DNA of 64,000 nt, taken from NCBI GenBank assembly GCA_903911145.1, contig CAIWCD010000013.1, positions 372,001 to 436,000 on the forward strand, given 5' to 3'. The translations under genes were made by a program, and so were the position numbers. Under the pieces are notes generated by a model. It did no database searches, had not been told where the DNA came from, and saw only the letters and a list, made by a program, of their open reading frames with translations. Source of the DNA: an uncultured delta proteobacterium. GTDB lineage: Bacteria; Myxococcota; Myxococcia; Myxococcales; 40CM-4-68-19. This document shows positions 5,151 to 31,643 of the stretch, one piece after another; the stretch's first letter is position 1; each line of letters starts with the position of its first letter.

Positions 5151-5816
5151 CTAGAAGACGTATCGGACGCGCGGCAGAATCGCGATCGAAAGCAGGCTCG
5201 GACCAGACTGGCTGATGTACGCGAGCGTGTAGCGACCCATCAACTCAAGTCCGACGGTGAAGTGATCGAGGTGAGTCGCGTAGTCGAGCGTCACGCCGAG
5301 TCCAACGTGGATTCCGAGCGCGCTGCCCGGCACCGTATTCGTCGAGACGTCGAGCAAAGGGCCGGGCGCGAGCTGCGTGAGGCCCGCGACGATCTTTCCT
5401 GACAGCTGCAGCCGGTGCGCAACCTCGCCACCGAACGATCCGCCGAGCTCGAGATACGCAGACTCGAATGAGTCTGCCGCGGTGCAGGTGCCGACACCCG
5501 TTACTTTCGCGTAGCAGTTCGACGAGACCGAGCCGATCCCCAGTCCGCCGAATATGGCAGCGTGGTCACCGACCGTCCCGCCGACGACCATCGAGAGATA
5601 GGTCTGCGCGTTCGAAAGACCCGCGGAGCCGCCGAGCGTCGTGAAGACGCCCAGACCGGCCTCAGCGAACGCACCGTGGCGCGGCTCCGGATCGACGCCG
5701 TTCGCAGGAACCGGCGCAGGCTGATCCTGCAAGGTGACCGGCGCGACCTTCTGGTCTGCCATCGCGGGCAGAGAGACGACCGCACCAAGAACCATCGCCA
5801 CTGCTACGAACCGCAT
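5151..5816 (-). CDS. gltH: Outer-membrane beta-barrel protein, GltH/NfsH/CglE-like
   Basis: Last gene of the bcs-glt array, 221 residues. It begins with a signal peptide (MRFVAVAMVLGAVVSLPAMA) and continues as alternating amphipathic strands, ending with aromatic-terminated PRVRYVF as outer-membrane barrels do. In myxobacteria a barrel protein of this size, GltH (CglE) or NfsH, closes the GltA-H/NfsA-H set and helps form the outer-membrane part of the gliding or spore-coat machine. The assignment rests mainly on position directly after gltG and on size and topology. The ATG at 5816 has a GAGGAG site 6 to 7 nt upstream and is preferred over one at 5852. Two cysteines (SSNCYAK, GTCTAAD) may form a loop disulfide. 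Confidence 0.65.
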   Translation of the reverse strand: MRFVAVAMVLGAVVSLPAMADQKVAPVTLQDQPAPVPANGVDPEPRHGAFAEAGLGVFTTLGGSAGLSNAQTYLSMVVGGTVGDHAAIFGGLGIGSVSSNCYAKVTGVGTCTAADSFESAYLELGGSFGGEVAHRLQLSGKIVAGLTQLAPGPLLDVSTNTVPGSALGIHVGLGVTLDYATHLDHFTVGLELMGRYTLAYISQSGPSLLSIAILPRVRYVF

Positions 5817-5855
5817 CGTGCGCTCCTCGCTGACGTACACTTGTTGCCTCACGAA

Positions 5856-7613
5856 CTACTGACCGCTCGCCTTGAAGACGTACGGATAGGTGACCTGCAC
5901 CGTTCCGCCGCCCGCAGGAGCGGGGAACACCCAGCGCTTGATGTGGTTGAGCATGCAGCTCTCAACCGTCTCGCTGGACATCGTCGTCTGCTGCACGAGC
6001 GCGTCGCCGACCCGGCCGTCGCCGCTGATGACGAACAGCACAGCGACCTTGCCGTAGAGGCCCGGGTCCTTCGTGAGCTCCTTCTCGTAGCAGTACTTGA
6101 TCTCGTTGTAGTGGCGCTGGATGATCCGGTTGATCACGTCGCGCGAGAGACCGCCGATCACGTTGGTCTTGCCCGGGATGAACTCGGTCTCGTCCTTGCC
6201 GCGTCCGCCGAGATCGATCGTGCCGTTGCCGCCGCGACCGCGACCGTTGCCGCCGGTGCCGAGGCCGCCGAGGCCGAGCGCCGTGCCGCCGCCGCCGCTG
6301 CCATTGCCGCGCGAGCCGAGACCGCCGGCGCCGTACGCATCACCCTGGCCCGCGCCACCCTTGATGCCGCCGAGCGCATTGTTGATGCCGGTGCCGAGAC
6401 CGCCAGGCCCGAGCACGTCGCTGGCCGCCCCCTGCGCGCCGACGCCGAGCTTGGACAGCGCCGCGAGCAGACCGGACTTCATGACCGTCTGGCGATCCTT
6501 CTCCTTCTTGTTCGGATCGACGATCGGCGCGCCCTTCTTGCTCGGGTCCGCGTCCTTCTTCTTCGCGTCCTGCTTGCCGAACTTGCCCTCGTCGCCCTTC
6601 GCTTTCGCGCCCTCCTTGATGCCGGAGAGCTCCTTGAACTTGGGCTTCTTCTCCTCGGGCTTCACCTGGTACTGCGTGAAGCGCGCCTGGTTGCGCGAGA
6701 GGTCGTCGCCGAGCATGTCGTCGAAGCGCGGCGTGATCTGGATGATGAGCCAGAAGAGGCCGAGCGCGAGAATCGCAATGAGCAGCGTCGTGGTGAACGA
6801 GACGTCGACCATCTCGACGAGGCCCTTGTCCGGCGCGCGAGCCGCCCGCACGTAGCGCGCGATCAGCGTCAGCTGCGGTGCGATCTGCACGACGATGCGA
6901 TCGTCCGACTGCACCGTGTATGCGTAGCCGGAAAATGGCGCCTCGACCCGCTGCGCCTTGCCCGTGCGCGAGAGCGATTCAAGGGAATCAATGCCCTTGC
7001 CGCTCGAGTGGTGGATTTCGCTGTTGAGATTCGCCGGGATGGTGAACACCAGCTCGCTGCCGACCGCGTTGACGATGCGGAAGTTCTTCGGCAGGTCGGT
7101 CGAGGGGAAATCGAAGATCTCGCCGACCTTGAGGTGACCGCCCTTCGCGATCTGCTCGAGCTCGACCAGCGTCTCATTGCCCCAGACGAGCCCGACGAGC
7201 AGCACGCGATCATCCTGTCGCGGCTTCTCGTCATCGAGGAGCGTGTCAAAGAGCAGCAGCTGTGCGGCCGCGGCGTCGGCAACATGCGAGGCCAGCGGTG
7301 CGCTCTCGTGGCCTGCGTGATGCGATCGGCTCGCGGCAGCGGCAACCCGCCCCGGAGGAACAGCGCGCGACGCGGGACGCGGTGCCGCACCAGGAGCCGG
7401 TGCGCGCGCAGCAGGCGCGGAAGAAGTTGCCGCGCTTGGAGCGGCAGCGCGAGGAGCGGGGGCGCGAGGAGCGGGCGCGCGTGGTGCGGGAGCAAGTGCC
7501 ATCGCGCCGACCGCGTCATTCAGCGTCGCGCCTTCCGGATCCTCCTCCATCGTAGCCCGAGGATCGGTCACGTCGTCAGCGTGCGCCCTGCTCTTCTTGT
7601 TGTCGTTCGCCAT
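5856..7613 (-). CDS. gltG: TonB-like envelope-spanning protein, GltG/NfsG family (AgmX/PglI C-terminal domain)
   Basis: A 585-residue bitopic protein. Residues 1-100 are a low-complexity Ala/Pro segment with repeats of APAPRAP; about 130-255 form a small folded cytoplasmic domain; a single transmembrane helix lies at about 272-294 (LLIAILALGLFWLIIQI); then come a charged linker, a Gly-rich stretch (about 395-465) and a C-terminal TonB-like domain (about 485-585) with HYNEIKYCYEKEL, the signature of the AgmX/PglI C-terminal family. In M. xanthus GltG and GltJ have this topology and link inner-membrane motor parts to the outer membrane. Here it would reach from the cytoplasm to the GltA/B/H barrels. 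It lies 27 nt after gltF and 39 nt before gltH. I see no clear FHA or zinc-ribbon motif in the N-terminus. Confidence 0.75.
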   Translation of the reverse strand: MANDNKKSRAHADDVTDPRATMEEDPEGATLNDAVGAMALAPAPRAPAPRAPAPRAAAPSAATSSAPAARAPAPGAAPRPASRAVPPGRVAAAASRSHHAGHESAPLASHVADAAAAQLLLFDTLLDDEKPRQDDRVLLVGLVWGNETLVELEQIAKGGHLKVGEIFDFPSTDLPKNFRIVNAVGSELVFTIPANLNSEIHHSSGKGIDSLESLSRTGKAQRVEAPFSGYAYTVQSDDRIVVQIAPQLTLIARYVRAARAPDKGLVEMVDVSFTTTLLIAILALGLFWLIIQITPRFDDMLGDDLSRNQARFTQYQVKPEEKKPKFKELSGIKEGAKAKGDEGKFGKQDAKKKDADPSKKGAPIVDPNKKEKDRQTVMKSGLLAALSKLGVGAQGAASDVLGPGGLGTGINNALGGIKGGAGQGDAYGAGGLGSRGNGSGGGGTALGLGGLGTGGNGRGRGGNGTIDLGGRGKDETEFIPGKTNVIGGLSRDVINRIIQRHYNEIKYCYEKELTKDPGLYGKVAVLFVISGDGRVGDALVQQTTMSSETVESCMLNHIKRWVFPAPAGGGTVQVTYPYVFKASGQ

Positions 7614-7640
7614 CGAAGACCTCTTCGTCAGGAGCGGGCG

Positions 7641-7931
7641 TTACAGGTTGTCAGCAGACTTCTGCAGTTCGGGATTGAAGTTGTCCCGCAGCTTGATGAG
7701 CGACTGGAACCGCGTCTTGTTGCGGTTCAAGAGGTAGCTGCCCTCAGGCTTGGTGAGTTCGCCTTCGACGCTCACGTCGCCGAAGTCGATGACCGTGCGC
7801 TTGCGCACGATGGTCTTGTCGGCCTCTTGCACGACGCGCTTCTCGCCCTCAGCGGGAGCGGCCTTGGTGCCCGCGGCCTGCGCCGAGAACGACGCGAGTG
7901 CGAGTGCAGCAACGATGACGATTCGCTTCAT
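7641..7931 (-). CDS. gltF: Small periplasmic protein GltF/CglF-like
   Basis: A 96-residue secreted protein with a clear signal peptide (KRIVIVAALALASFSAQAAG) and a mature part of about 75 residues. The mature part carries IDFGDVSVEGELTKPEGSYL followed by LLNRNKTRFQSLIKLR, which I recognise as the conserved block of the small myxobacterial gliding protein GltF (CglF). Size, signal peptide and place between gltE and gltG all agree. Its biochemical role is unknown; in M. xanthus it is needed for the gliding complex. The ATG at 7931 has AGGAGG at ideal spacing. A longer open frame upstream to 8366 is arginine-rich shadow of gltE and is not coding. Confidence 0.75.
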   Translation of the reverse strand: MKRIVIVAALALASFSAQAAGTKAAPAEGEKRVVQEADKTIVRKRTVIDFGDVSVEGELTKPEGSYLLNRNKTRFQSLIKLRDNFNPELQKSADNL

Positions 7932-8034
7932 GGCAACCTCCTGCAGCTGCTTCCTATCGGCGCTAGCACGAGCACCGGCGTCGCATCCATCAGCCGATCG
8001 ACGTTCGAACGGCACTCTCGATCTACCTTGCACA

Positions 8035-9519
8035 TCACTTCGTCGGCTCCGCAGCGGGTGCCGGTGCAGCCGTCGGCGCTGCCGGCTGGTCAACCGGCGC
8101 GGCCGCGGCCGGCGCAGAAGCTGGCGGAGCGGCCGGTGCGGAAGCGGGCGGAGCGTCCGCCGCAGGAGCCGTCGGAGCAGGCCCGGGCGACGGAGCGGGA
8201 GCAGTCGCGGGAGTCGAGGCAGGAGCGACGCCTGCCGGAGGAATCGCCGTCGCGTCGTCCGTATTGAGCGCCGGAACAGGTGCAGGCGCAGCGTCGGTCG
8301 CCGAGCCCGCAGCACCTGCAGGCAGAGCCAGCGCCGAGATGTCCGAGCCGGCGCTCTTGTTCTCATGCTTCTGCTCGGGCGGCGGCGCGACCTTGGGAGG
8401 ATTCTTCAATCGCAGATCGATCTGCGCGATCTGGTTCTGGGCATCCTTCAAGCGGGTCGCGTTGGGAAGCTGCGCATACGACTGGAACGCAGCCATCGAC
8501 TCCGGCAGCTTGTTCTGCGCCTTGAGCGTCGTCGCCTTGCCGTAGAGCGCGTCATCCTGGCCCGGCTTGAGCGAGAGCACCTTCTCGTAGGCGCCCTGCG
8601 CCTCGACCGACTTCTTCAATCCCTCGAGCGACCAGCCGTACGCGAGCTCCTCGTCCCACCGCGCGGGATCGAGCACCGTCGCCTTCGAATAGGCATCCGC
8701 CGCTGCCGGATAGTCGCGATAGCTGAGCGCAAGCGCGCCGAGATTGGCCCAGGCCGCAGCGCAATTCGGATCGAGCTTGAGCGCCTCATTGAAGCGGTCG
8801 CGCGCACCGACGAGCTCCCCGCGATTCCAAGCGAGCACGCCGAGGTTGTTCGAGATGCCCGGGTCCTTGCCGTCGAGCTTGCGCGCATTGATGAGCGCCG
8901 TCTCGGCCAGGCGCGGCTTTCCGCGATCGAGGTAGATCAGCGCGAGGTTCTTGTACGCATCCGGATCGCTGGGGTGGTGCACCAGCACGCGGCGCACCAT
9001 CGCCTCCGCCTCGTCGAGCTTCTTCTCGAGACGCAGGATCCCCGCGAGTGCGCTGAGCAGCTTCGGCTCCCCCTCGCGCTTCTGCAGCGCCGAACGAACC
9101 GTCTGATCCGCATCGGGCAGTGCATCGCGCAGGCGATACAGACGAGCAAGGTTGAGCGCCGCGCCGAGGTGATCGGGCGCAACCGTCAACGTGCGTCGAT
9201 AGAGGTCGATCGCGTGCGGCAGATTCCCTTGCTGCTCGGCGATCCATCCCGACTCGAAGAGCGCCTCGACGTTGTTCGGGTCACGCGCCAGCGTCGCATC
9301 GAGGCCAGCCTGCGCCCCCGCGAAGTCGCGCGACGCCAGCTGGCTGTGCGCCTGGCGATAGAGCTCATCGGGCGTCTTCTCGACGGGCGCCTGCATCTGC
9401 GAGTCGGGAGTTGGCTTTACTTCCGCAGGAGCGCACGCAGCAACAGCCATCGCGGCGGCGACTGCGCCACCCTTGACCGCACTGCGGAAGAACTTCGCAC
9501 AGCGCAATGACGACCTCAC
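8035..9519 (-). CDS. gltE: TPR-repeat outer-membrane lipoprotein GltE/NfsE-like
   Basis: A 494-residue lipoprotein. The N-terminus has a signal peptide ending in a lipobox around Cys29 (VAAC), and about ten tetratricopeptide repeats fill residues 50-350, for example NNVEALFESGWIAEQQGNLP and CAAAWANLGALALSYRDYP. A long Ala/Pro-rich disordered tail follows. GltE and NfsE are outer-membrane TPR lipoproteins that interact with the GltA/B barrels. It starts with GTG, overlapping the gltD stop by 4 nt (GTGA), so translation is probably coupled. A 103-nt gap separates it from gltF. Confidence 0.75.
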   Translation of the reverse strand: MRSSLRCAKFFRSAVKGGAVAAAMAVAACAPAEVKPTPDSQMQAPVEKTPDELYRQAHSQLASRDFAGAQAGLDATLARDPNNVEALFESGWIAEQQGNLPHAIDLYRRTLTVAPDHLGAALNLARLYRLRDALPDADQTVRSALQKREGEPKLLSALAGILRLEKKLDEAEAMVRRVLVHHPSDPDAYKNLALIYLDRGKPRLAETALINARKLDGKDPGISNNLGVLAWNRGELVGARDRFNEALKLDPNCAAAWANLGALALSYRDYPAAADAYSKATVLDPARWDEELAYGWSLEGLKKSVEAQGAYEKVLSLKPGQDDALYGKATTLKAQNKLPESMAAFQSYAQLPNATRLKDAQNQIAQIDLRLKNPPKVAPPPEQKHENKSAGSDISALALPAGAAGSATDAAPAPVPALNTDDATAIPPAGVAPASTPATAPAPSPGPAPTAPAADAPPASAPAAPPASAPAAAAPVDQPAAPTAAPAPAAEPTK

Positions 9520-12500
9520 GGCGCACCTCCACCAGAACCGGCTTGCTTGACGGCACCTGCGGCGGGAGCTGCTGCGGGTGCGGCCGCCGGTGCAGGCGTG
9601 GCCGGAGCGCCACCGACACCTTGCGGCGTCACCGACGCGAGAGCCTCACTGCCAACGGGCTGCGGCTTCTTCACTTCGCCGTATGCGTCCGGCTTGTACG
9701 ACTTGAGCTGGTCCTGCGCGCGCAGCGTCCACTCCGAATAGACGCCCGTCCGCGACGAGGTCGAGACGGCCTTGTCGAAGGCATCCACCGCCTTGTCCTC
9801 GAGCGGCAACGCCTGGTTCTCGAGCGTCGTGCGGTAGAGGTCTTCCTGATCCGGCGTGAGTCCGCGCGGCATCGGCGCATCGAGCAGCTTGTGATTGAAG
9901 TTCGCGTAGGCCTCGCCAAGCCGGCAGAGCGCCGCCTCGGAATAGAGCGGGCTGCCGAACTTGATGACTTCGGTATAGGCCGCCGTCAACTGGGTCATCT
10001 TCGTGTTCTTCACCTTCAGCACGAAGATGAGATCCTTCTGCCGCGTGTAGTTGAAGTTAATCGCGATAAACTCATTAAACGCCGGCTCGAGCAGCAGGAA
10101 GCGGGCGTGCGCGGCCGCGTCGATCACCGGAGAGAGGCGCTCCGCCGCCGGCAGTCCCGGGAATCGCCGCAGAAGCTCCGCGAGGATAATCGGAACGTTT
10201 GTATCGTCCTTCTTCAATTCGCGCAGCGCCATCGCCTCGTTGTAACGAGCGAGAAAGAGCTGTCCGGGCGTCGCGCTCTTGGCGTAATCGCGCTGGTAGA
10301 ACGCCCAGGTATCCGCCGTCTTTTTCCAATCCTTCTGCCGCTGGATGATCAGCGCCAGGCTGAACCCGATGCGCGGGACGTCCGAGCGGCCCGAATAGGC
10401 CTTGATATATCGATTCCAGAGGGCAATCGCGCCGGCGTCGTCGCCGAGTCCTTCCTTCCAGAGCGCAGCGTTGAAGACAAAGTCCGCCGCCTTCTCGTCC
10501 TGCGGATACTTATCTGCATACGAGAGATATGCGGCAATCGCCTCGGGGTATCGGGCCGCGCGCTCATATGCGAGGGCAATCGAGCGCATCGCCGGCTTGA
10601 GGATCGACTCCTCGGTCTTCGGATAGTCGTGGATGAGCTGGCCGGCAGTGGCAATCACGAGGTCGAGCTGCTCGGCCTTCTCGGCAATGAGGATTCCGTT
10701 GTTGAGCGCGAGCGTCGCGTGCTCGCTCTTCGGATATGCCGCAACGAAATCCTTGAACTCCTTTGCCGCCAACTCGTAGTTCTTCTGCTTCTCGTAGATC
10801 TCCATGATGTACTTGAAGCGGGCGCCTTCGGCGATCTTCGCGAGCCGCTTGTTGAACTCGCCATTGGGCGGAGCGATGCGCTTGTCCTCGCGGAACTTCT
10901 GCGCGAGTTCGAAGAGCGGCTGCCATTGCTCCTTGACCTCGAGGATGTTCATCGAGAGATCGGCCGCCTTCTGCGACCAGGTATCCGTCGGCCAGCGGAG
11001 GATGATCTCGCCGAACCGCTTCGCCGCATCGACGTAATGACGGTGATCGTAATAGGTGAACGCCTGCTTGTAACGAATGACGATTTCGTCCTTCGCCTTG
11101 GGCGATACCTCGAGATACTTGTCGCAAGCCGCAAGCAGCTTGGCCTCGGTCGGAGGGATCGCCTCTTCAGCGGTGTCCTTCGTGATTTTCTCTTCGTGGA
11201 TGGTGCGCTTCTGCTCGACCTGCCCCTTGGCGCGCTTCTCGTCGATCTTCGACGCGTCAGAGAGATCGCTCTTCTTCGCGAGGCCCTTCTCGATCGCGAC
11301 CTGCTTCTCGAGCGCAAGGATATCGTCATAAGCGGCGCGCTGGGAATATTGGCCCTTATCGTCAAGCGCAACGACCTGCTCATACTGCGCCGCCGCATCC
11401 GGCCACTGCTCGAGGGCGTAGAGGATTTCCGCGTAATAGAAGCGCATTGAATAAGCAGCTTCTTCGGTCGAGAAGGTATCGAGGTACTGCTTATAGATAT
11501 CGCGCGCGAGCTTATAGGTCGCGACGCTCTTCGTCTTCGTCGCCTCCTGGTGATAGTCCTGAACCAGTTCACGCATTGCGCTCTCGGCCAGCTCGGTGGC
11601 CTCCTGCAATGCACCCTTCTGCTCGGCGTTGGCGGTTGCCCACGCGCTCTTCGGACCAAAGTTATCAACCAGGATTTTCATCTCCGACACGACCTTGTCG
11701 CGCTTGTTCAGCTTGTCGTACGAGATGAGGATTTTCTGCTGCCACGCCGGCGCGCGCACGTTGGTCGGATTCTCCACCTCAATCAGCTTGTAGACGCGGA
11801 TCGCCTGGTCGAACTTGCCGCTCTCGAAGTAGGTGCCGGCCAGCTTGTTGATGTAATCGAGCGACTTATCCTTACCGGCCTTATCCTTGAGGTAGGCAAT
11901 CGCGCTGTCGATCGCGTCGACCTGCGCATAGGCAAGAACCAGATCGCGCAGCGCTTCACTGCGCAACTGAACGCGGTCGCGCGCCCCGCCGATGGCCGCC
12001 TGGCTCTCGGCGTAGGTAATCACGTTCTTGAACTTGTCGATCGACCCCGTATAGTCCTGCGCGTTGTAATCGCACCAGGCGAGCTTATAGAGCGCGAAGG
12101 CATAGATCTTCGGCAGCTTGAACGACGCGGCCTTTTCATACGCAGCGCGGGCGCGCGTGAGGTCGTTCGTGTTGAAGTAATGCTCGCCCATCTGCACATA
12201 GGAGTCAGGGACGAACTTGCTCTTGGGAAACTGCTTGATCAGCGTGTTGTAGTTCGCAAGCGCGTCGTTCTTCTGGCCGCTCTCGTAGAGGTTGTAGCTG
12301 ACGACGAAGAGCACTTCATCCTTGCGCGGATAGCTCGGGTACTTCTCGAGGATGACGCGATAGTTGCTCAGAGCCTCCTTGCGGAACTTGTCGCTGGTGG
12401 CAGTGGCCATCTTCGGCTCCGGGCCGGCGCCCTTCTGCCCCTTCTTATCGACCTCCTGCAGCCACTTTGCATAGGTCTCGTCGTAGCTCTTCGACTCCTG

Positions 12501-12884
12501 CAGCGCGACGTACCGCGACTTCTCCCACCAGAGTTCGGCGAGCTGGAAATAGAGGTCGGCCTTCTGCGGTGCGTTGTCCTGCAGTCGCACGAGGATCTTC
12601 TTGATATCCTCGATGAGCTTGTCGCGCTTGAGGTCGGCGGCCGAGTCGCGTGCGACGTCCTCTTCGGACGTAGGCGCCTTCATCTTCGACGGGCCGGCCT
12701 TATCGGTCTCGATATCGCCCGGCACCTTCATCTTCAGGACGTCCGGCTTCTTCTCCTTGGTGTCCTTCGGCGCCTCCTTGGCGAACGCGCTCGAACCCAG
12801 GGTGAAAAGCAATCCCGCAACGATTGCACCTGCAAGCCGCGTCTGCTGGGCGGCCGCCGCGAACCTCATCTGCTGCGCTTTCAT
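9516..12884 (-). CDS. gltD: Large periplasmic TPR protein GltD (AgmU)/NfsD-like
   Basis: At 1122 residues this is close in size to M. xanthus AgmU/GltD. After a signal peptide (about residues 1-37, ending SSAFA) come a Lys-rich linker and many tetratricopeptide/Sel1-like helical repeats over nearly the whole length, e.g. NAPQKADLYFQLAELWWEKS and KLPKIYAFALYKLAWCDYN. The C-terminus is a Pro/Ala-rich tail. GltD is a periplasmic scaffold that moves with the gliding complexes; NfsD does the same in spore-coat assembly. The start ATG at 12884 shares one base with the gltC stop (TAATG). Several short patches use AT-ending codons (ATT, TAT, AAT) more than neighbouring bcs genes do. Confidence 0.8.
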   Translation of the reverse strand: MKAQQMRFAAAAQQTRLAGAIVAGLLFTLGSSAFAKEAPKDTKEKKPDVLKMKVPGDIETDKAGPSKMKAPTSEEDVARDSAADLKRDKLIEDIKKILVRLQDNAPQKADLYFQLAELWWEKSRYVALQESKSYDETYAKWLQEVDKKGQKGAGPEPKMATATSDKFRKEALSNYRVILEKYPSYPRKDEVLFVVSYNLYESGQKNDALANYNTLIKQFPKSKFVPDSYVQMGEHYFNTNDLTRARAAYEKAASFKLPKIYAFALYKLAWCDYNAQDYTGSIDKFKNVITYAESQAAIGGARDRVQLRSEALRDLVLAYAQVDAIDSAIAYLKDKAGKDKSLDYINKLAGTYFESGKFDQAIRVYKLIEVENPTNVRAPAWQQKILISYDKLNKRDKVVSEMKILVDNFGPKSAWATANAEQKGALQEATELAESAMRELVQDYHQEATKTKSVATYKLARDIYKQYLDTFSTEEAAYSMRFYYAEILYALEQWPDAAAQYEQVVALDDKGQYSQRAAYDDILALEKQVAIEKGLAKKSDLSDASKIDEKRAKGQVEQKRTIHEEKITKDTAEEAIPPTEAKLLAACDKYLEVSPKAKDEIVIRYKQAFTYYDHRHYVDAAKRFGEIILRWPTDTWSQKAADLSMNILEVKEQWQPLFELAQKFREDKRIAPPNGEFNKRLAKIAEGARFKYIMEIYEKQKNYELAAKEFKDFVAAYPKSEHATLALNNGILIAEKAEQLDLVIATAGQLIHDYPKTEESILKPAMRSIALAYERAARYPEAIAAYLSYADKYPQDEKAADFVFNAALWKEGLGDDAGAIALWNRYIKAYSGRSDVPRIGFSLALIIQRQKDWKKTADTWAFYQRDYAKSATPGQLFLARYNEAMALRELKKDDTNVPIILAELLRRFPGLPAAERLSPVIDAAAHARFLLLEPAFNEFIAINFNYTRQKDLIFVLKVKNTKMTQLTAAYTEVIKFGSPLYSEAALCRLGEAYANFNHKLLDAPMPRGLTPDQEDLYRTTLENQALPLEDKAVDAFDKAVSTSSRTGVYSEWTLRAQDQLKSYKPDAYGEVKKPQPVGSEALASVTPQGVGGAPATPAPAAAPAAAPAAGAVKQAGSGGGAP

Positions 12885-14427: not shown

Positions 14428-15303
14428 CTAGAAGAGGAAGCTGAGGCCGGTGAAGACGGTGATGTTGTTGACGACATCCGCGGAGGGCGTCGCGATCTGG
14501 GCGGCCGCGACCGCCGCGTCACCCTTCGGATTGGCCCCGAAGGCCGCGATGCTGCAACCGCTCGAGACCGACGCGCTCGTGCCCTGGGCCGAGATGGCCT
14601 TGGTGTCCGTATAGGTGCAGCCGTTCACCGTCGAAACGTAGGCCGAATAGACGAGATCGCGGACCTCGAGGCGCAGCGTGAAGCGGTCGTTGAGGAACAC
14701 GCGGAAGCCTGCGCCGAGGCCGGCCATCGGGCGGATACCCGTATCGCCGTAGGTGCGGCCCTCTTGCGACGTCGAGCTCTGCAGCTGCAGCTCCGTCTTC
14801 GCGATGCCGAGGCCGACGTTGATATAGAAGCCCATCTTCAAAATCTTGCCGTCGAAGATGTTGAGCTTGCCGTAGACCGGCATCAGCTCGAGCCCGATGA
14901 GGCCACCCGCCTGTAGAAGAAGCGCATCGGCCGCGAGCGGCTGCTGGTTGACCTTGTTGACCAGCTCTTCCGTCAGCGTGCTCTGCTGCGCGACCGGGTT
15001 CCACATCGCCCCGATCTGCAGCGCCACGTTCTCTCGAAGGTGGTACGCGCCCTCGAGCGCGATGCCGATGTGCGTGGTGAACTTGGTGTTGACCTGGATC
15101 GGCGCGAAGAGGCTCAACTCGCCGCGACCGCCTTCGGTGAACGGGCGCTTCTCGACGACGTGAACGGCCTGGACGTCAGACTCTTCAGTCGGCGCAGCCT
15201 CCGTAGCCGCGGCGGGCGCGACTGGAGCAACGGGACCTTCTGCGCGGGACGCCGTGGCGACAAATGCGGCGAGCGCGGCAACAATGAGTGCGTGGGTGCG
15301 CAT
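14428..15303 (-). CDS. gltB: Outer-membrane beta-barrel protein GltB/NfsB-like
   Basis: A 291-residue protein with a signal peptide (about 1-21, ending ASRA), a short Ala/Pro/Glu linker and a mature part built of amphipathic strands, ending in FTGLSFLF with a terminal phenylalanine as expected for BAM-assembled barrels. It is clearly related to the preceding gene product: both share an APIYGKLN or MPVYGKLN segment and a GxGFRxxxxDxxS/TLxxEVRxxxY segment near the C-terminus. This matches the myxobacterial outer-membrane barrel family that includes GltA/GltB and NfsA/NfsB. Which of the two genes is A and which is B cannot be told from sequence alone; I named them by order. It starts 2 nt after gltA. 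Confidence 0.7.
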   Translation of the reverse strand: MRTHALIVAALAAFVATASRAEGPVAPVAPAAATEAAPTEESDVQAVHVVEKRPFTEGGRGELSLFAPIQVNTKFTTHIGIALEGAYHLRENVALQIGAMWNPVAQQSTLTEELVNKVNQQPLAADALLLQAGGLIGLELMPVYGKLNIFDGKILKMGFYINVGLGIAKTELQLQSSTSQEGRTYGDTGIRPMAGLGAGFRVFLNDRFTLRLEVRDLVYSAYVSTVNGCTYTDTKAISAQGTSASVSSGCSIAAFGANPKGDAAVAAAQIATPSADVVNNITVFTGLSFLF

Positions 15304-15305
15304 GG

Positions 15306-19599: not shown

Positions 19600-19704
19600 C
19601 GCGATGCCTCTACCATCGAGTTTGATGCCGTCCAACTGAAAGAATGGGGATCTCCGCCGATCCCCTGATTGCCGCCGAAGCTCGTCGGCCACGGCGCGAG
19701 CGGG

Positions 19705-24000: not shown

Positions 24001-24815
24001 GCAACCTCGGCGCCGTGAGGGTCGGCGCGCGGCTCGGCGAGCCGCTTCTTGAGCTCCGCGTCGTCCGGGTGGCGGGCGAGATACTGGGTGAGAAGCGCAT
24101 CGTCAGTCGACGCGAGACGCAGCCAGAGAAGCGCCTGCCGCTGCGCAGGATCGGCCTCATCGGCCAGAACGCCCTCGAGGATCAGCTTCTGCAGCGCCGC
24201 GATTCCGTCGCGCCGCGTCTCCTCGCGATAGGTCTGCACCCGGGCGAGCGCGATGCGATACGCGGGCTCTCCGGGACTCGTTGCGAGCAGCTTCGCCAGT
24301 CCGTCGGAGGCCTCCTTCCAGCCATCCTTGGTGCCTCCCAGCGTCGCGTAATACTCGAGGCTCAGGTGCCGCGGCGGACCGGACTCTCCGAAGAGCTGGC
24401 GATAAATCGTGACTGATTCGTCAGCTTTTCCATCGCGCGCGAACGCGCGGGCCTGCGCGAGCAACCGATCGAACTCCGCACCAATGGTGAGCGCGCGTTC
24501 GACGGACCGGGCGTCGGCAGAGCCGGGAGCGATCGAGTTGAGCCGCGAGAGATACTCGCGGGCCTTGTCCGCCTTGCCCAATCGCGCGGCCTGCGCGCCG
24601 AGCGCAGCGAGAGCCTCGATGTCGCGCGGGTCAGAACGCAGCACCTTCTCGTAGGCCTCGTCAGCGCGATCTTCGCGGCCGCGCGCCTGCCAATAGCGCG
24701 CGCTGCGCAGAAGCAGCTCAACCGCGTTCGGCGGCGTCTGCGCGGACGCCAGAGGAGCGACGGAGGCGAGCGCAAGCGCGCAGAGGAGAATCAGGGTTGT
24801 GCGCATGAGGTCCAT
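21030..24815 (-). CDS. bcsC: Cellulose synthase subunit BcsC (periplasmic TPR plus outer-membrane porin)
   Basis: A 1261-residue exporter of cellulose. A signal peptide (about 1-25, ending ASA) is followed by a superhelix of some 18 or more TPRs to about residue 850 (e.g. GREDRADEAYEKVLRSDPRD). The C-terminal 350 residues or so form the BcsC beta-barrel: LPLGYHGRFLLTATPTLLDV opens it, GGIRYRSQALGFGFAVEVSR and WGQVTRNGGRLDLGYTTEST follow, and GGLFVRLNFL closes it. E. coli BcsC is about 1150 residues with the same plan. TPRs bind peptidoglycan and BcsB-side partners while the barrel passes the glucan chain. It overlaps the end of bcsZ by 25 nt; an ATG at 24806 is an alternative start. Confidence 0.93.
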   Translation of the reverse strand: MDLMRTTLILLCALALASVAPLASAQTPPNAVELLLRSARYWQARGREDRADEAYEKVLRSDPRDIEALAALGAQAARLGKADKAREYLSRLNSIAPGSADARSVERALTIGAEFDRLLAQARAFARDGKADESVTIYRQLFGESGPPRHLSLEYYATLGGTKDGWKEASDGLAKLLATSPGEPAYRIALARVQTYREETRRDGIAALQKLILEGVLADEADPAQRQALLWLRLASTDDALLTQYLARHPDDAELKKRLAEPRADPHGAEVAAGFQALERSDVKEAERNFKAAARSDQNGDALVGQGLVAFKRGEFSKARDLFAKVRALSPDKPEIWERSLRSATFWALMQDGRAAQADHRLDDAEALFAQAAKSGAVERGYAEVVLAQLSLERGEPEKAELRLRALLRERPDMPEALRGLLEVLIRLGQREEAESINEKLAQSSPKLALDKGALEATMLRANATSSMEHGRPDLARTALVAARAADAQNVWVLHDLANVELELGELSAARSDAALLLKLDPGMVEARITWVRVLANAGDHEAALAALSALPPEAMTPEMRALKPLLQVRGEAERILRRAPHEKRELIRDDLLRLQQRVHGQSAAASAVAHAWIVLGETQRAVELMNQTVASNPDAAASLKLDLAAVLLGAAQDGPLLALLSELEADSRLTPRDRRGLVDLKTSVTVRRADQFRERGDLQQSFNTLAGPLNTLPDQPRLLCALGRLFNDGDRAADGLAVFVRVLESDPDNLEAREGAVRSAAKLHRIGDARRFVDEGLKRAPRDARLRLLAAKLDVQLGDDGDAMGNLDEARQLVASSLTAEEAARGAQLTRESSVPEILDEGRKQFGDASHPAAETIELQDQIQREIDAIRERHAAYVSATADLRARAGEAGLTQLVAFRIPLEIGLPLGYHGRFLLTATPTLLDVGALAFASPDVAHRFGSGALPLNARPDLQIGMRASGTELRAGYQQGGLALDVGSTPLGFLLKTYTGGIRYRSQALGFGFAVEVSRRLVEDSMLSMAGVYDPLSGVTWGQVTRNGGRLDLGYTTESTTYYLWGAYDVLLGTHGVSANSESSGGLGLEWTVLKSTLANFGSGLSVTVLGYQNNLRYFTLGQGGYFSPQGFVNASIPFRLHGEIGKLRWTAQVNPGLNWFTEARTPYFPRDPSRELAREAATDTTGAPLVAFYPSNATTAFAIDAQGDVAFPLTEHLEGGMYLRIHHAQDYDEVQGGLFVRLNFLGRESQQSSAGELVRTPWSTAPER

Positions 24816-26104
24816 CGGGGCTGCAGGCGGCCGTCGCGGGAAAACCGAAATGCGCCGTCGAGAAAGCCGAGCGCGAAGAGCGCGAGGTTCTGGTCGTAGT
24901 AGGCCGCAGGCTCGCCGAAGTTGCCGCTCGGCCCGCGCGAATGCTCAAGCCGCTCGCGCAGCGCCGCGACGCCGCCGACGTCTCCTTGCGCGGCGAGGGA
25001 GGGAAGGATCGCGGCCCAGAATCCCGGGGGCCCTTCGTGTCCGCTCAATCCGCGCGAATCGACCGAGCCGGCAGAAGCGCTCCCGTCCTTGCTGGGCGCG
25101 GGCGCGCGCGTATCGACGCGCTCAGGAATCCTGCCGGTCGCGCGATACCAGTCCGCCAGACCGCGCGTCGATCGCTGCCAACTCGCGCGGAGCGGATCGG
25201 CCTCGTCGATGAACGCTGCCCAGAGAATTGTGCGGATGGCGTCGTACGAGCCGACCGATCCCGACACGGGATCGACGAAGACGCCGGCGCTGCTGGACTG
25301 CGCGATCCAGTCGGGGACGAGGCCGTTGGGTGCAGCGTCATGCAGCAGCCGATCCCAGCTCTGGGCGAGGGCGCTCCACGGGCCTCGAGGATCGCGGTCG
25401 GCGAAGCGACGCAGCAGAGGGAGAGGAACGTAGCTCGGGTTGAGGCGAGCGACGCGCGCGGCCGTGCTGCCAGCGTCCGCGGAGGGAGCTTCGGGAGAGA
25501 GGAAGCCGTGCGGAGCGGGCAGCAGCGCCAGGCCAAGTCCGGGGAGATCGACGATCTCGAGCGTGCGCACCTGTATGAGCAGGCGATCGCCGAGTGCCTC
25601 GTAGCGCGGCTCATTCCAGAGGCGGCCTGCCTCGAGAAGCGCCCAGGCGAGCCAGAGATCCGCGTCGCTCGCTGCGTTCGCGTCGGCGATGGCAAACCCT
25701 TTCGGGCCGCTCGACCAGAGCCATGCAGGCAACCGCTCGCCCAGAGCTGCGCCCGCGAGATTCACATCGGTCCAGTGCAGCACCGCAGAGAAGCGCGCGC
25801 GATCTCCCGCGACCAGCGCGAGCGCGAGCGCATAGGCCTGCCCCTCTGACGTTGTCCGTGCCCCTGCCGTCCGATCGACCACGCGGCCGTCAGCCTCGAT
25901 GAACGCCTCGGCGTAACGGTCCCAATCGGCCCATGCGGAGCATCGCGCATCGGCACGCGCATGTTCTCTCTGTGCATCCGACGCGGCGACTGCGGCCTTC
26001 TTCCCCGCGCAACCGGAGGGAGCAACTGCGCAGCCCGCGAAGGCGAGCGACACCACGGCCTCCCGCGCCCAGCGCGGTCCGGAGCGTGCGGACGCGCGAT
26101 TCAC
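24791..26104 (-). CDS. bcsZ: Periplasmic endo-1,4-beta-glucanase BcsZ (glycoside hydrolase family 8), probably lipid-anchored
   Basis: A 437-residue GH8 enzyme that cuts stray or crystalline cellulose chains during synthesis. The general acid glutamate lies in TTSEGQAYALALAL, a conserved aspartate in DADLWLAWALLEAG, and the base aspartate in SYDAIRTILWAAF, all in the expected order. The C-terminal YYDQNLALFALGF matches the family end. Unlike soluble E. coli BcsZ, the N-terminus has two lipobox-like cysteines (AFAGC and APSGC), so it may be a lipoprotein. It starts with GTG in a GTGA overlap with the bcsB stop, and overlaps bcsC by 25 nt, as expected for one operon. Confidence 0.93.
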   Translation of the reverse strand: MNRASARSGPRWAREAVVSLAFAGCAVAPSGCAGKKAAVAASDAQREHARADARCSAWADWDRYAEAFIEADGRVVDRTAGARTTSEGQAYALALALVAGDRARFSAVLHWTDVNLAGAALGERLPAWLWSSGPKGFAIADANAASDADLWLAWALLEAGRLWNEPRYEALGDRLLIQVRTLEIVDLPGLGLALLPAPHGFLSPEAPSADAGSTAARVARLNPSYVPLPLLRRFADRDPRGPWSALAQSWDRLLHDAAPNGLVPDWIAQSSSAGVFVDPVSGSVGSYDAIRTILWAAFIDEADPLRASWQRSTRGLADWYRATGRIPERVDTRAPAPSKDGSASAGSVDSRGLSGHEGPPGFWAAILPSLAAQGDVGGVAALRERLEHSRGPSGNFGEPAAYYDQNLALFALGFLDGAFRFSRDGRLQPRWTSCAQP

Positions 26105-28371
26105 GGCTGCGGCTCCAACCCACTCGCAAGAGGATCGGCGGGCGGCTCATCTCCGATCGGCGCGCTCTGCTCGTCGGTCCACTGGCGCGCACGGATCTGC
26201 CGAACCACCATGCCGCGCAGGAGCAACGCGAGGCCGAGCACGCCGAGGAACAGACACGGCACGAGGATGAGCGCGTGGTTGGAGAGAAACCAACGCAGCG
26301 AAGAGAAGCGGTGGAGCTGCGTCGTGCCGTAGCGCTCGCCGATCTCGAAGAGTCCGCGCTGGCCACCGAGGAGCACGAGCAGGTCTCCGCTCTCACGCGC
26401 GCTCTGCGCCGGACCTGAGAACGCGGCGAAGGCGGGCAACTCTGCAGAGGTCGACGCCGTGATCGCGACGACGCTGCGCCGGGCATTGAGCGGAGATTCG
26501 AAGCCGACGACATCCACCAATCGCGACGCACCGCTCGCCATCAGACTGAGCCGCTCAAGCTCCTCGTGGCCGCGGCGACCCGCGAGCAGATCGAGCAGGG
26601 GGTGAAGCGTGCTCGGGGTCTGGACATGGGCCGGCCCGTTCCCCGAGAGGAGCGGGAGACGGTCGCGCCAGCGCTGCAGCAGCGAATTGTTCTCGAGCGC
26701 GCCGATGACAAGCAGATCCTTCGGAGCCTGCTCCGGCGCGAGCGCCTCTGCGGCCGTGAGCAGCGAGGGGCGCGCGACCACGCCTGTCACGGTCGCGAGG
26801 TGATCGAGCGTGGAGAGGAGCGTCGAGATCTCCTCGCTGCGCGGGACATCGGAGAGCACCACGGCGGTCTCCGAGAGATCGGGCAGCCGCGTGAACGGAA
26901 AGCCGTCGTTGACGAACAGGCGCAGGTCCGGCTGCGGAGCGAAACGAGTGAACGGCCCGAGACGCATCGTCGAGTCGGCGAGGATCTGCACGCGGAACTC
27001 ATTTGTCTCTCCGCTGCGGCAGAGCGCCTCTGCTGCCGAATAGTTGACGAAGACAACCAATTCGTTGAACCCGTGAAGCACGGTGCGGTGCACGCGCAGA
27101 CGCAGGCGCCGATTGTTCTCGCCCCGCGCGGGATCGAGCGGCGGCAGCGTGGTGAGGAAGACTCCGTTGAGCTGAAGGTCGAGCCGTGGCGCAGGTGTTC
27201 CGGGCGGCAACGTGATCGCGTAACCGAGATCGAGGTCGATGAACTCATTCGGCCAGACCCAGAGATCGGGAGGGAGTCGGAACCCGAGCGCGATCTTGCC
27301 ACCCGTCATCCCGACGTGCGTCAACTGCTCGGGAGAGAACGCGTGCGCGAAGGGAATTTCGCGGTCAGCGACCATCCAACGAGGCGAGGAATACGGCGCG
27401 TAGACCCGCGGCATCGGTGCCTCGACAACCTCCGCGCGAGCGCCATGGAAGCGGCCCGCAGAGCCATCGACGAGCGTCTCGACTGCGCGTCGAAGCTCTT
27501 CAGCATCCCGGCCAGAGAGCACCAGCAGCTTGACGTTGCCGCCCGGATGGCGGGGATGATCGAGCATCTCGATCGCCGGCCCCGTCGGCGCGGCGAGGCC
27601 CAGCGCGGCGGCGCTCTCGGCGCTGTCGATGAGCACGACCGTGCTCGCGTCCGGGAGCGAGCCCTCACTGACGGGAAAGCGCGCTTCAGCACCAGCGTCG
27701 ATGCCGAACCACGAGGCGATCATCCCCGCGAGCCGCACGGTCGCGAGCGAAGGCTGCGACGCGAACGCGACGTGAATCACCGCATCGCGATCGAAGGCGC
27801 GATCAACGAACGGCAGCGGCAAGAGCGAGAGTTCATCGGGCAGCGGCAACGGCGCGGCTTCGAGGACGAGTTCGCCGTCTCGCAGGACATTCCAGGCGTC
27901 GGAAAGAACGCGGCCGCACGTCGGCGGGCGGTCCATCGCCAGCGCGAACGTCAGCGTGTTCTTGTCGCCGAGCGCCTTCGGATCGATCGACACGCTCGCC
28001 GTCGCGGTCGGGTGGCCGCGCAGATCGGCGTGGATCGCGTCCGGCCCGAGCGAGGCCATCTTCTCCTGGTTCACCAGCACGTCGAGGCCACGAACCCCCC
28101 AGGCTGGATCGATGCGATCAGCGAAGCGCAACTGCAGCGTCGCCGCGGTGAAGACCTGATCACCACGCGTCGCGAAGGGAAACGAGAGCGTCGGCTGCGT
28201 ATTGAACCGCTGCGCATCGGCGAGGCCGAGTTCCGCCAGCGAGATGTGCACGCGGCCCTGCTCGTCCGTGCGCGCGCGCCCTTCTCCGTGTCGCTGCTCG
28301 ACCGCTTCGCGCGGCGCTTCCCGGCATCCGGCGAGCGCAAGCAGCGCGCAGGCGAGCACCGACGGAAGCAT
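26101..28371 (-). CDS. bcsB: Cellulose synthase regulatory/periplasmic subunit BcsB
   Basis: A 756-residue partner of BcsA that guides the nascent glucan through the periplasm. It has a signal peptide with lipobox-like LALAGC near residue 15, alternating carbohydrate-binding and flavodoxin-like domains (LGFRLPPDLWVWPNEFIDLD is the typical BcsB signature, followed by LDLQLNGVFL), and a C-terminal transmembrane helix (about 710-735, ALILVPCLFLGVLGLALLLR) that packs on BcsA. The ATG at 28371 gives the only clean signal peptide; a GTG at 28401 is a possible alternative. It lies 44 nt after bcsA and overlaps bcsZ by 4 nt. Confidence 0.92.
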   Translation of the reverse strand: MLPSVLACALLALAGCREAPREAVEQRHGEGRARTDEQGRVHISLAELGLADAQRFNTQPTLSFPFATRGDQVFTAATLQLRFADRIDPAWGVRGLDVLVNQEKMASLGPDAIHADLRGHPTATASVSIDPKALGDKNTLTFALAMDRPPTCGRVLSDAWNVLRDGELVLEAAPLPLPDELSLLPLPFVDRAFDRDAVIHVAFASQPSLATVRLAGMIASWFGIDAGAEARFPVSEGSLPDASTVVLIDSAESAAALGLAAPTGPAIEMLDHPRHPGGNVKLLVLSGRDAEELRRAVETLVDGSAGRFHGARAEVVEAPMPRVYAPYSSPRWMVADREIPFAHAFSPEQLTHVGMTGGKIALGFRLPPDLWVWPNEFIDLDLGYAITLPPGTPAPRLDLQLNGVFLTTLPPLDPARGENNRRLRLRVHRTVLHGFNELVVFVNYSAAEALCRSGETNEFRVQILADSTMRLGPFTRFAPQPDLRLFVNDGFPFTRLPDLSETAVVLSDVPRSEEISTLLSTLDHLATVTGVVARPSLLTAAEALAPEQAPKDLLVIGALENNSLLQRWRDRLPLLSGNGPAHVQTPSTLHPLLDLLAGRRGHEELERLSLMASGASRLVDVVGFESPLNARRSVVAITASTSAELPAFAAFSGPAQSARESGDLLVLLGGQRGLFEIGERYGTTQLHRFSSLRWFLSNHALILVPCLFLGVLGLALLLRGMVVRQIRARQWTDEQSAPIGDEPPADPLASGLEPQP

Positions 28372-28415: not shown

Positions 28416-30638
28416 TCACAATGTCCCTCGCGGCGCATCTGGCGGGCGTGGAGTCGATGCGGCTGGCGGAGGCACAGAGCTGGGCGGCGGGGCAGGAGTC
28501 GCAGTTGCGGCGCCAGCGCTGCGTGCAGGACGCGCCCGGACCATCTGCCGCACGTTGCTCAGACCGCGCATCGTGATCGAGTGGAACGCGCTGATCGGAT
28601 GATCGTGCGCGCGCCCGTCGGTCCAGCGCACCCAGGCATCCGCGCGAGAGAAGATCGTCTGCGCGAGCACGGCCTCCTCCTCGAGCGAGAGCGCGAGAAA
28701 TCGCAACCGCAGCACGTTCCCGCGGCAATCAACCACCTCGGCCGGCAGCGGCAGCTCATCGGCTGCGGTGAAGATCGAGACGCTCATCCGCTCCTTCGGC
28801 GTGAACTCCCGCCCCGCCGGAACCGTGAGCGAAAGGCCGCCGCGTGCCAGATCGATCGTCTTGCAACGCATCGTGCGTCCGCCCTGCAGCGCGAGCATCG
28901 CGGGCAACTGCGCGTTCACGCGCGGGCTGTCGCGCACCTGCCGCTGCTCCCACGCCACCGCCACCGTCGCGCAGAGGATCACCAGATTGTACGCACTCCA
29001 CCCGAGCGTCAGCGCGAGCACGTCAGGCTCGGCCTCGCCGTGAAGGTAGTGGACGACGCCGATGATCATGCTGATCAGATTGAGCGCAGCGATGACGAGA
29101 TAGGGACCGGCGATCTTCATCTCGAAGTAGGGGTCGGTGATCCGCCCGCCCTTGGCCGTCACGTTGAACTTCCCGCGACGCGGCGCGATCAGTGCGACCG
29201 TGGTGGGAATCAGAATGTAGAACGCCAGACACGTCTCGTAGACTTCGTTCCAGAACGAGTGGCGCACGGCTCCGGCGACGCGCGAGTTGGTCAGCACCGA
29301 ATGCGCAAGGTGAGGCAGCGCATAGGCGAGCGCCATCAAGGGAAGCGCGTTGTAGATGTGCAGCCCGAAGAGCGGATAGCTGATGGGCGCGATGAGGAAG
29401 ATGATCCGTGGCAGGCCGTAGAAGAAGTGGAGCATCGCGGCGGCGTAGGAGACGCGCTGCATGATGGTGAGGCCGCGGCCGAAGAGCGGGTTGTCGAGGC
29501 GGAAGATCTGCGCCATCCCGCGCGACCAGCGGATGCGCTGCCCGACATGCGCGGCGAGGCTCTCGGTGGCGAGGCCCGACGCCTGCGGGATGCTCAGGAA
29601 GGCGCTGTTCCATCCCTTGCGGTGCATCTTGAGCGCGGTGTGCGCGTCCTCGGTGACCGTCTCGATGGCGATCCCGCCGACCTCCTCGAGCGCGGCCCGC
29701 TTGATCACCGCGCACGAGCCGCAGAAGAAGCTCGCGTTCCAGAGATCGATGCTCGGCTGGATGAGACCGTAGAAGAGCTCGCCCTCGCTCGGCAGCTTCT
29801 TGAAGAGGCCGAGGTTCCGCTCGAACGGATCGGGCGAATAGAAATGGTGCGGCGTCTGCACCAGCGCCATCCGCGGGTCCTTGAGGAACCAGCCCATGCA
29901 GACTTGGAGGAACGAGCGGGTCGGCACGTGATCGCAGTCGAAGATCGCGATGTAGTCGCCGCGCGTCTTGGTGAGCGCGTGGTTGAGATTGCCTGCCTTG
30001 GCGTGCGCGTTGTCGGAGCGCACGATGTAGCCGATACCAGCCGCGGCCGCGAACGACTGGAAGGCGCCGCGGCGTCCGTCGTCGAGGAGGAAGATGCGCA
30101 GCTTCTCGGCGGGCCAGTCGAGCGCCTTCGCTGCGAGCACGGTCGTGCGCACCACCTCGAGCGGCTCGCTGTAGGTCGGGATGAAGACGTCCACAGTCGG
30201 CCAGCTTGCGACGTCGGCGGGAAGCGGCTGCGGCTTGCGAGGGAAGCGGCCGAGCAACTGCAGGTACCCGAGCAGAAGCATCGCGTAGGCGTAGAGCTCG
30301 GCGCCAAAGAGGACGTAGCCGAGACCGGACTCGAGCGTGCGCTCTGGGAGCAGTGTCGCGGTCAATCGCCAGAAGAGGTAGCGCGTCGAGACCGTGAGCG
30401 AGACGAGGACCAGCGCGAGCGTGACGACACTGCCCTCGCTCGACCAGCCGAGCAGCAGCGCGGCCGCGAAGACGCCTGCGCCGAGGAGGATCTGCGCGCG
30501 CAGATCGAGAGGAGTGACGACGACGAGCAAAAGGCAGGCGACGCCAGCAAGCGCGAGCAGGACCCAGCCGAGACGAGCGAGCGCGGCGAGAACTCCGCGC
30601 CTCGCGGGCGCGGTGCGGGCGGGCGATTGCGAGGACAA
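28416..30638 (-). CDS. bcsA: Cellulose synthase catalytic subunit BcsA (GT2 plus c-di-GMP-binding PilZ domain)
   Basis: A 740-residue inner-membrane glycosyltransferase that makes beta-1,4-glucan from UDP-glucose. N-terminal helices precede the GT2 domain, which has the UDP-binding aspartates (FLLDDGRRG), the DxD motif (IFDCDHVP), the acceptor-base aspartate (TVTEDAHTAL) and the QxxRW-type motif GQRIRWSRG. Several helices follow, then a PilZ domain with an RxxxR-like switch (VRDSPRVN) and DLARGGLSL in place of the usual DxSxxG, so binding of c-di-GMP is expected although the serine is an alanine here. A Pro/Ala-rich tail ends the protein. It starts 3 nt after bcsRQ. Confidence 0.96.
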   Translation of the reverse strand: MSSQSPARTAPARRGVLAALARLGWVLLALAGVACLLLVVVTPLDLRAQILLGAGVFAAALLLGWSSEGSVVTLALVLVSLTVSTRYLFWRLTATLLPERTLESGLGYVLFGAELYAYAMLLLGYLQLLGRFPRKPQPLPADVASWPTVDVFIPTYSEPLEVVRTTVLAAKALDWPAEKLRIFLLDDGRRGAFQSFAAAAGIGYIVRSDNAHAKAGNLNHALTKTRGDYIAIFDCDHVPTRSFLQVCMGWFLKDPRMALVQTPHHFYSPDPFERNLGLFKKLPSEGELFYGLIQPSIDLWNASFFCGSCAVIKRAALEEVGGIAIETVTEDAHTALKMHRKGWNSAFLSIPQASGLATESLAAHVGQRIRWSRGMAQIFRLDNPLFGRGLTIMQRVSYAAAMLHFFYGLPRIIFLIAPISYPLFGLHIYNALPLMALAYALPHLAHSVLTNSRVAGAVRHSFWNEVYETCLAFYILIPTTVALIAPRRGKFNVTAKGGRITDPYFEMKIAGPYLVIAALNLISMIIGVVHYLHGEAEPDVLALTLGWSAYNLVILCATVAVAWEQRQVRDSPRVNAQLPAMLALQGGRTMRCKTIDLARGGLSLTVPAGREFTPKERMSVSIFTAADELPLPAEVVDCRGNVLRLRFLALSLEEEAVLAQTIFSRADAWVRWTDGRAHDHPISAFHSITMRGLSNVRQMVRARPARSAGAATATPAPPPSSVPPPAASTPRPPDAPRGTL

Positions 30639-30641
30639 GCG

Positions 30642-31643
30642 CTACCTCGACCCGACGGAGACGAGGGGAAGCGGCGAGGCCTTGCGCATCTCGGCGGCGG
30701 TGACTTCGACCCACTCGGCGAGAGCGGAGAGTTCAGCGACGACCTGCGACTCGGGGCCTTCGCGCACGACCAGGCGGCGGCGCGCGAGAGACTCGGAGAC
30801 GACCTCATCGGCGTGGATTGCGCGGGCGAACGTACGCTCGGGGATCACGCCTCGCAACGACGAGAGCACATCCCGATCGAGAGCACGGCGCGCGTCGAAC
30901 TTGTTGACCAGATAGCGCGCGCGACGGCGCCCCTGGCCGCCCGGAACCCACTCGTCAAGCAGAGCTTCGGTCGCTGGCAGTGTGGCATAGCCGGCCGCAT
31001 CGGGGCCGAGCACCACCAGCACCGTGTCAGCGAGCGTGAGCGCCTGCTTGAGCCACGGCGACGCGCGCGCGGGAGTATCGAGGACGAGAAACTCCGTCTC
31101 GTTGGGTACGAACGCCGCGAGACGCTTCTGCAGCCACTGCGGCTCGCGCGCCGACGCCGCCTCGAGACCCGCGATCTGCGCGCCAGTCAGCGGGCCGAAG
31201 GGGAGTACAGCAGCAGCGCTGCGAAACCGCGCGAGCCAGAGAGCGACTTCTTGAGGCGCGAGGTTCGCGGAGAAGAGGCCGAACGATTCACCACCCTCGA
31301 GTCCGAAATGGAGGCCGAGTGCGTTCTGCGGATCGAGGTCGGCGGCGACCACCGCGCGACCATTCTGCCCGAGCGTCGCCGCAAGATTCGCCGCGATGGT
31401 GCTGCGTCCCGTGCCGCCAGCGAGCGAAACCACCGCGATGGTCGTGCAGCGCCCGGTTCGCGAGCGCTGTGTCGTCTCGCGCGGGATCTGGACCTGCCGC
31501 CGTTCCTGAATGAGTCGGTTGGTCTGGGCCAGGATCGGCCACCGCTGCGCCGCCGCCTGCCAGCGCTCACCCGCCGCGACTTCGCGATACTCGAGCTCGG
31601 GCGAGCCGATCGACTCGAAGAGCTTGCGAACGTCATCGTTCAT
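30642..31643 (-). CDS. bcsQ: Fused BcsR-BcsQ protein (cellulose synthase accessory ATPase)
   Basis: A 333-residue protein opening the cellulose operon. Residues about 1-40 (DDVRKLFESIGSPELEYREV, then QAAAQRWPILAQ) resemble the whole small protein BcsR/YhjR of enterobacteria, with the same spacing from the SPELEY-like to the RWPxLA motif. Residues about 65-320 are the ParA/MinD-like ATPase BcsQ with a deviant Walker A SLAGGTGRST (the lysines are replaced: GGTGRST instead of GGxGKT/S), DLDPQNALGLHF and the LVLDTPA Walker B-like strand. In E. coli BcsR and BcsQ form a complex at the inner face of BcsA. Here they appear joined in one chain. The ATG at 31643 is preferred over a GTG at 31652. No strong ribosome binding site is seen. 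Confidence 0.85.
   Translation of the reverse strand: MNDDVRKLFESIGSPELEYREVAAGERWQAAAQRWPILAQTNRLIQERRQVQIPRETTQRSRTGRCTTIAVVSLAGGTGRSTIAANLAATLGQNGRAVVAADLDPQNALGLHFGLEGGESFGLFSANLAPQEVALWLARFRSAAAVLPFGPLTGAQIAGLEAASAREPQWLQKRLAAFVPNETEFLVLDTPARASPWLKQALTLADTVLVVLGPDAAGYATLPATEALLDEWVPGGQGRRRARYLVNKFDARRALDRDVLSSLRGVIPERTFARAIHADEVVSESLARRRLVVREGPESQVVAELSALAEWVEVTAAEMRKASPLPLVSVGSR

Follow-up and report, generated by a model that had tools for sequence, protein, structure and literature searches.

In an uncultured member of the Myxococcales (GenBank assembly GCA_903911145.1, contig CAIWCD010000013.1, positions 372,001 to 436,000; this 64,000-nucleotide (nt) stretch is called the window below), a cellulose operon stands in line with an nfs locus, and we propose that the two are linked by a cargo swap, in which cellulose would replace Exo as the polymer that the Nfs complex moves or packs. 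We put the probability of this reading at about 0.48; it is suggested because ExoA and ExoC are missing from the host genome, the Nfs genes are intact, and a full cellulose exporter lies in line with them. The array lies on the minus strand, starting at 31643 and ending at 5151, and holds 16 same-strand open reading frames (ORFs), namely bcsRQ, bcsA, bcsB, bcsZ, bcsC, three lipoprotein genes and homologues of gltA to gltH. A preliminary description of this DNA had the strand, coordinates and gene names right and counted 17 genes; BcsR and BcsQ share one ORF, so there are 16. In transcription order the genes are:

30642..31643, minus strand: bcsRQ, a BcsR-like N-terminus fused to a BcsQ ATPase (PF10945, E 4e-9; PF06564, E 1e-27; TIGR03371 above cut-off)
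28416..30638, minus strand: bcsA, cellulose synthase with a PilZ domain (TIGR03030 above cut-off; DDG, DxD, TED, QxxRW and RxxxR motifs)
26101..28371, minus strand: bcsB (start inferred, longest ORF from 28728; PF03170, E 2e-116; matches E. coli BcsB structures)
24791..26104, minus strand: bcsZ, periplasmic GH8 endoglucanase (NF008305 above cut-off; catalytic motifs TSEGQAY and SYDAIR)
21030..24815, minus strand: bcsC, exporter with TPR and outer-membrane barrel (PF05420, E 6e-77)
19705..21027, minus strand: propeller lipoprotein, NHL-type beta-propeller (repeats GLAFDxxGNLW; NHL/PknD propeller matches, E about 1e-7; lipobox LSAC)
17749..19599, minus strand: Cys-rich lipoprotein (CysLP), 75 Cys, ancestral to the nfs locus (start of the longest ORF at 19692)
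16193..17752, minus strand: VWA (MIDAS) lipoprotein (VWALP), likewise ancestral to the nfs locus, DNSSS MIDAS nearly invariant, orthologues at other nfs loci
15306..16097, minus strand: gltA-type, nfsA, outer-membrane barrel (TIGR04565 above cut-off; orthologues)
14428..15303, minus strand: gltB-type, nfsB, outer-membrane barrel (TIGR04565 above cut-off)
12884..14395, minus strand: gltC-type, nfsC (NF033756, E 2e-60; in the tree with M. xanthus NfsC)
9516..12884, minus strand: gltD-type, nfsD, TPR protein (TPR families; position; 60% identical to the nfs-locus copy of genome G009)
8035..9519, minus strand: gltE-type, nfsE, TPR lipoprotein (NF033758, E 1e-22)
7641..7931, minus strand: gltF/cglF-type, nfsF (start inferred, longest ORF from 8366; NF033764, E 3e-16, C-terminal 94 amino acids (aa) only)
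5856..7613, minus strand: gltG-type, nfsG, predicted motor-coupling inner-membrane protein (NF033760, E 6e-82; NF033768, AgmX/PglI C-terminus, above cut-off)
5151..5852, minus strand: gltH/cglE-type, nfsH, outer-membrane protein (NF033755 above cut-off)

Judged from its sequence, the upstream part of the array is a complete cellulose secretion operon, bcsRQ-A-B-Z-C, and cellulose production is predicted. The core of a Bcs system is all there, with the GT2 core and PilZ domain of BcsA, BcsB, the BcsC barrel and BcsZ, and motif inspection found the catalytic and cyclic di-GMP (c-di-GMP) motifs of BcsA and the catalytic motifs of BcsZ intact. The window BcsC is the single BcsC match in the host genome (G000). 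A second cellulose locus of this genome (L014, contig C37, 2629-8084) encodes a 1463-aa BcsA-BcsB fusion followed by bcsZ; neither bcsC nor bcsQ was found near the fusion, so export from this locus would depend on the window BcsC. The window copy adjoins this second copy in the BcsA and BcsB trees, both standing apart from the bcs clade of the host family, and descent of the window copy from the bcs operon native to the family was set aside on these thinly sampled trees.

The downstream part is an nfs locus, as follows from the GltC tree, the synteny with rplC (the gene for ribosomal protein L3) and the uninterrupted order from A to H. GltC, the one A-H protein for which a tree was built, groups with M. 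xanthus NfsC (support 98/94) and with its own family (100/100), while the gliding GltC proteins form a separate clade (99/98). The preliminary description had called for trees against both Glt and Nfs proteins and had spoken of a complete envelope machine of gliding or spore-coat type; complete and contiguous it is, and its type narrows to the spore-coat Nfs, to which glt is paralogous (PMC3858216). A search seeded by an NfsC-type alignment gave 60 named loci, and the L3 gene lies upstream of the A-H block in 41 of them, as it does in the window, where bcs comes between. Orthologues of CysLP and VWALP stand between rplC and nfsA in 10 of these 41 loci (L055, L065-L067, L069-L072, L076 and L091), and the window keeps L3, the Cys-rich and VWA genes and a contiguous A-H block in the same order. 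By family search, the gltA and gltB products are two OMP_myx_plus barrels. Neither a gliding-type GltC nor a full-length GltJ was found in the host genome, and the latter holds for the family relatives as well. The rplC-like gene, which precedes nfs in most Myxococcales loci, stands alone in the window, with no other ribosomal protein genes adjoining it.

AglRQS of M. xanthus drives Nfs around the spore, carrying the Exo polymer along after its export, and Nfs movement loses direction without Exo; cargo diversification of machines of the Glt/Nfs type has been proposed (PMC3858216). In a Myxococcus-type genome, the domain order of nine genes and an ExoA of 190 aa identified the exo operon, which makes the spore-coat polymer. 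ExoC scores at least 312 bits in seven relatives from the host family and likewise in most of the other families that were tested. In the host genome, a 53-contig draft rated 98.96% complete, ExoC was not found, the best match being WzcB-like at 57 bits, and neither was ExoA, the sole OPX protein being of WzaB type; some absences in this genome come from single family searches. At this sensitivity an Exo spore-coat polymer is not predicted for the host, which bears on function more than on orthology. The WzaB-type gene, which is short, lies next to the end of another Glt-like cluster (GltD-, GltE- and GltG-like) in the host (L209, G000:C18:36000-55999), an arrangement seen also in L208 (G117:C16:172000-191999). 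An ExbB-ExbD-ExbD triplet on host contig C2, orthologous and 66/46/48% identical to a Myxococcus triplet, is AglRQS-like by sequence and a candidate motor for Nfs.

Everything from bcsRQ through the propeller gene falls precisely into the interval that separates rplC from the CysLP gene, and because of this exact placement and the conserved flanks on both sides we read the bcs cassette and the propeller gene as a lineage-specific insertion. The features around the insert are:

33108..34451, minus strand: enolase, left flank (Pfam; 75-77% orthologues beside rplC in L043, L045 and L047)
31943..32584, minus strand: rplC-like, encoding ribosomal protein L3 and anchoring the conserved nfs locus on its left (TIGR03625, E 1e-66; longest ORF 31943-32713)
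31653..31942, minus strand: rplC-bcsRQ intergenic region, 290 nt, presumed promoter for bcsRQ onward
19646..19665, minus strand: terminator-like hairpin that falls right on the module boundary, after the propeller gene and before CysLP
4072..4923, plus strand: SDR dehydrogenase, right flank (orthologue beside nfsH, 72-77% in L044 and L047/L084, 81% in L214)

Family relatives have the same flanks in the same places: upstream lie FBPase, enolase and one SDR gene, and a further SDR gene follows nfsH downstream. In the same-genus genome G008, in which no bcs was found, nfsG, nfsH and the SDR gene are present on a 4.8-kb contig that ends inside nfsG, so the insert site is not covered. Several family relatives carry between rplC and nfs an antisense gene for a T2SSE ATPase with MshEN (potentially c-di-GMP-binding) and cyclic-nucleotide (cNMP)-binding domains (L041 4333-6750; L043 9915-12155; L044 12891-15077), which is absent from that place in the window. 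The GC content and third-position GC (GC3) of the insert resemble those of its flanks (GltD and GltF were not used in GC3), and no shared repeat of at least 10 bases was found at its ends; a recent foreign origin was rejected on this basis.

The junctions within the array are short, as first described, many of them overlaps. bcsRQ and bcsA are 3 nt apart and bcsC and the propeller gene about 2 nt; bcsB and bcsZ overlap by 4 nt, as do the CysLP and VWALP genes and gltD and gltE, and gltC meets gltD at TAATG. The VWALP-gltA gap is 95 nt, and the largest internal gaps, about 105 nt, lie between the propeller and CysLP genes and between gltE and gltF, with starts inferred. Only the rplC-bcsRQ spacer, at 290 nt or slightly more, is a long intergenic region, and in it (31653..31942) no consensus sigma-70 promoter passed the scan. 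The nfsA-H genes of M. xanthus form one unit, expressed in sporulating cells and developmentally induced, with the promoter within 323 bp of nfsA (PMC2875238).

The three lipoproteins differ in their history. The propeller lipoprotein, for which no relatives were found in the rest of the host family, belongs to the inserted segment and lies outside the ancestral nfs locus; its repeats and modelled fold are NHL-like. CysLP and VWALP are also present at nfs loci of lineages that have no cellulose genes at that place and so cannot count as parts specific to cellulose. On this point the preliminary description, which listed the lipoproteins as adhesins or glycan binders in cellulose handling, needs correction for two of the three. 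The MIDAS of VWALP is intact, and a model of modest quality predicts an integrin beta-I-like fold.

Under the cargo swap, BcsA-BcsB, activated by c-di-GMP, would make cellulose, which BcsZ would trim and BcsC export as strands. NfsG would couple the Nfs complex to the AglRQS-like, proton-driven motor, and Nfs would carry the emerging strands over the cell surface and pack them, giving a cellulose coat in encystment or sporulation; the VWA, Cys-rich and propeller lipoproteins may serve as surface grips. The position of bcs ahead of nfs would let synthesis and packing be expressed together. Gene content, orthology, the insertion and, at the sensitivity given above, the absences are shown; co-expression, the physical handling of cellulose and the coat role are steps that we infer. 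In its stronger form, which we hold tentatively and at somewhat less than even odds, a proton-driven trans-envelope transporter of Nfs type would have switched from a Wzx/Wzy-type polymer to cellulose made by a synthase, the fibres exported by BcsC being moved and packed by a motor and not passively assembled.

Several observations weigh against this reading. The gene content of the block is far beyond chance, whereas the adjacency of bcs and glt as such is confined, among the genomes examined, to this one: besides the window, bcs was beside nfs in none of the 60 named loci, 145 genomes of the order and 195 genomes of the phylum. Among these 195, strong BcsB matches come only from the host family and from a single further genome of the order, a distant genome giving one weak match. 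The family relatives, which have retained Exo and Nfs, carry their bcs operons elsewhere in the genome. The preliminary description had asked whether adjacency is conserved, and had held that modules lying apart in relatives would make the link accidental; the modules do lie apart, and by that measure an adjacency unique to one genome favours accident. The content between rplC and nfsA varies in relatives (the antisense T2SSE gene, a lipoprotein pair, or neither), and this segment may simply tolerate insertions. No cellulose-binding domain was found in any protein by family search, the absence of Exo is based on two of the nine exo genes, and the coupling is inferred from a single genome. The weak hairpin at the module boundary would speak against co-transcription of bcs and nfs, though it is within chance, six terminator-like hairpins being observed in the region against 8.1 expected, which is not significant.

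A rival reading is an accidental neighbourhood: bcs would have inserted at a tolerant and expressed place between rplC and nfs, with cellulose used in biofilm formation or aggregation and Nfs working on another polymer, such as BPS, or decaying. Uniqueness, the variable rplC-nfsA gap and the boundary hairpin all fit, and the remaining WzaB-like and WzcB-like genes make another polymer likely; we take this to be a serious contender, at around one chance in three. Against it stand the tight in-line insertion on the coding strand, which left no spacer or pseudogene, and nfs genes that are intact in a genome where the pathway for the usual Nfs cargo was not detected. It is the apparent loss of Exo in the same genome as the insertion that keeps functional coupling the leading explanation, and coupling, as a cargo swap or as co-regulation only, is rated likelier than accident. 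The original suggestion that such a complex handles cellulose stays plausible as a link, with the machine narrowed to Nfs and without conserved adjacency. Co-regulation only, with bcs under a developmental nfs programme, cellulose made at encystment and Nfs not touching the fibres, would suit the sole long intergenic region upstream of bcsRQ and the single, developmentally induced nfs unit of M. xanthus (PMC2875238); it would leave Nfs without its known cargo in this genome, and we consider it unlikely. A gliding machine with cellulose as slime or adhesive, to which the Glt half of the preliminary title points, can draw on the homology of GltA-H and on the MIDAS principle that VWALP shares with the adhesin CglB, and is rejected as very improbable on the GltC tree and the lack of gliding-type GltC and full-length GltJ. 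An assembly chimera joining two loci might be suspected from a unique arrangement in a 53-contig draft; the 491-kb contig, the conservation of the nfs-locus flanks to either side of the insert and the similar GC make it hardly credible.

A literature search found no paper linking Nfs with cellulose, and as far as the searched literature shows, a cargo swap, if true, would give bacterial cellulose its first link to an active surface-transport machine. A genome that has apparently lost the usual cargo pathway and encodes, in line, a different and chemically simple polymer would offer a direct test of polymer recognition by Nfs/Glt machines. Elsewhere in the window, at 40359-42188 (minus strand), lies a gene for a protein with HARE-HTH and Mrr-type restriction endonuclease parts.

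Compared with known systems, the locus is closest to the Nfs system of M. xanthus (nfsA-H, MXAN_3371-3378), with which it shares eight genes in the same order downstream of L3, a GltC of the NfsC clade and, elsewhere in the genome, an AglRQS-like motor triplet; it differs in the cellulose operon upstream, in the Cys-rich and VWA lipoproteins within the locus, and in a genome where ExoA and ExoC of the known cargo pathway were not found. The Glt gliding complex (gltA-K) has paralogous A-H components, whereas the window GltC falls outside the gliding clade and the genome is without full-length GltJ or gliding-type GltC. VWALP resembles CglB, the VWA-domain gliding adhesin, as a lipoprotein with a MIDAS motif and an integrin-like predicted fold, and differs in being encoded in an nfs locus; among the families searched it matched no CglB model, no CglB sequence being compared, and gave a partial match to NF052240 (MIDAS adhesin, Bdellovibrio type). 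Finally, the upstream module shares with E. coli bcsRQABZC the core order R-Q-A-B-Z-C and intact catalytic and c-di-GMP motifs, and differs in that BcsR and BcsQ form one ORF, that bcsD, bcsE, bcsF and bcsG are absent from the array, and that the operon is followed by a propeller lipoprotein gene and nfs.

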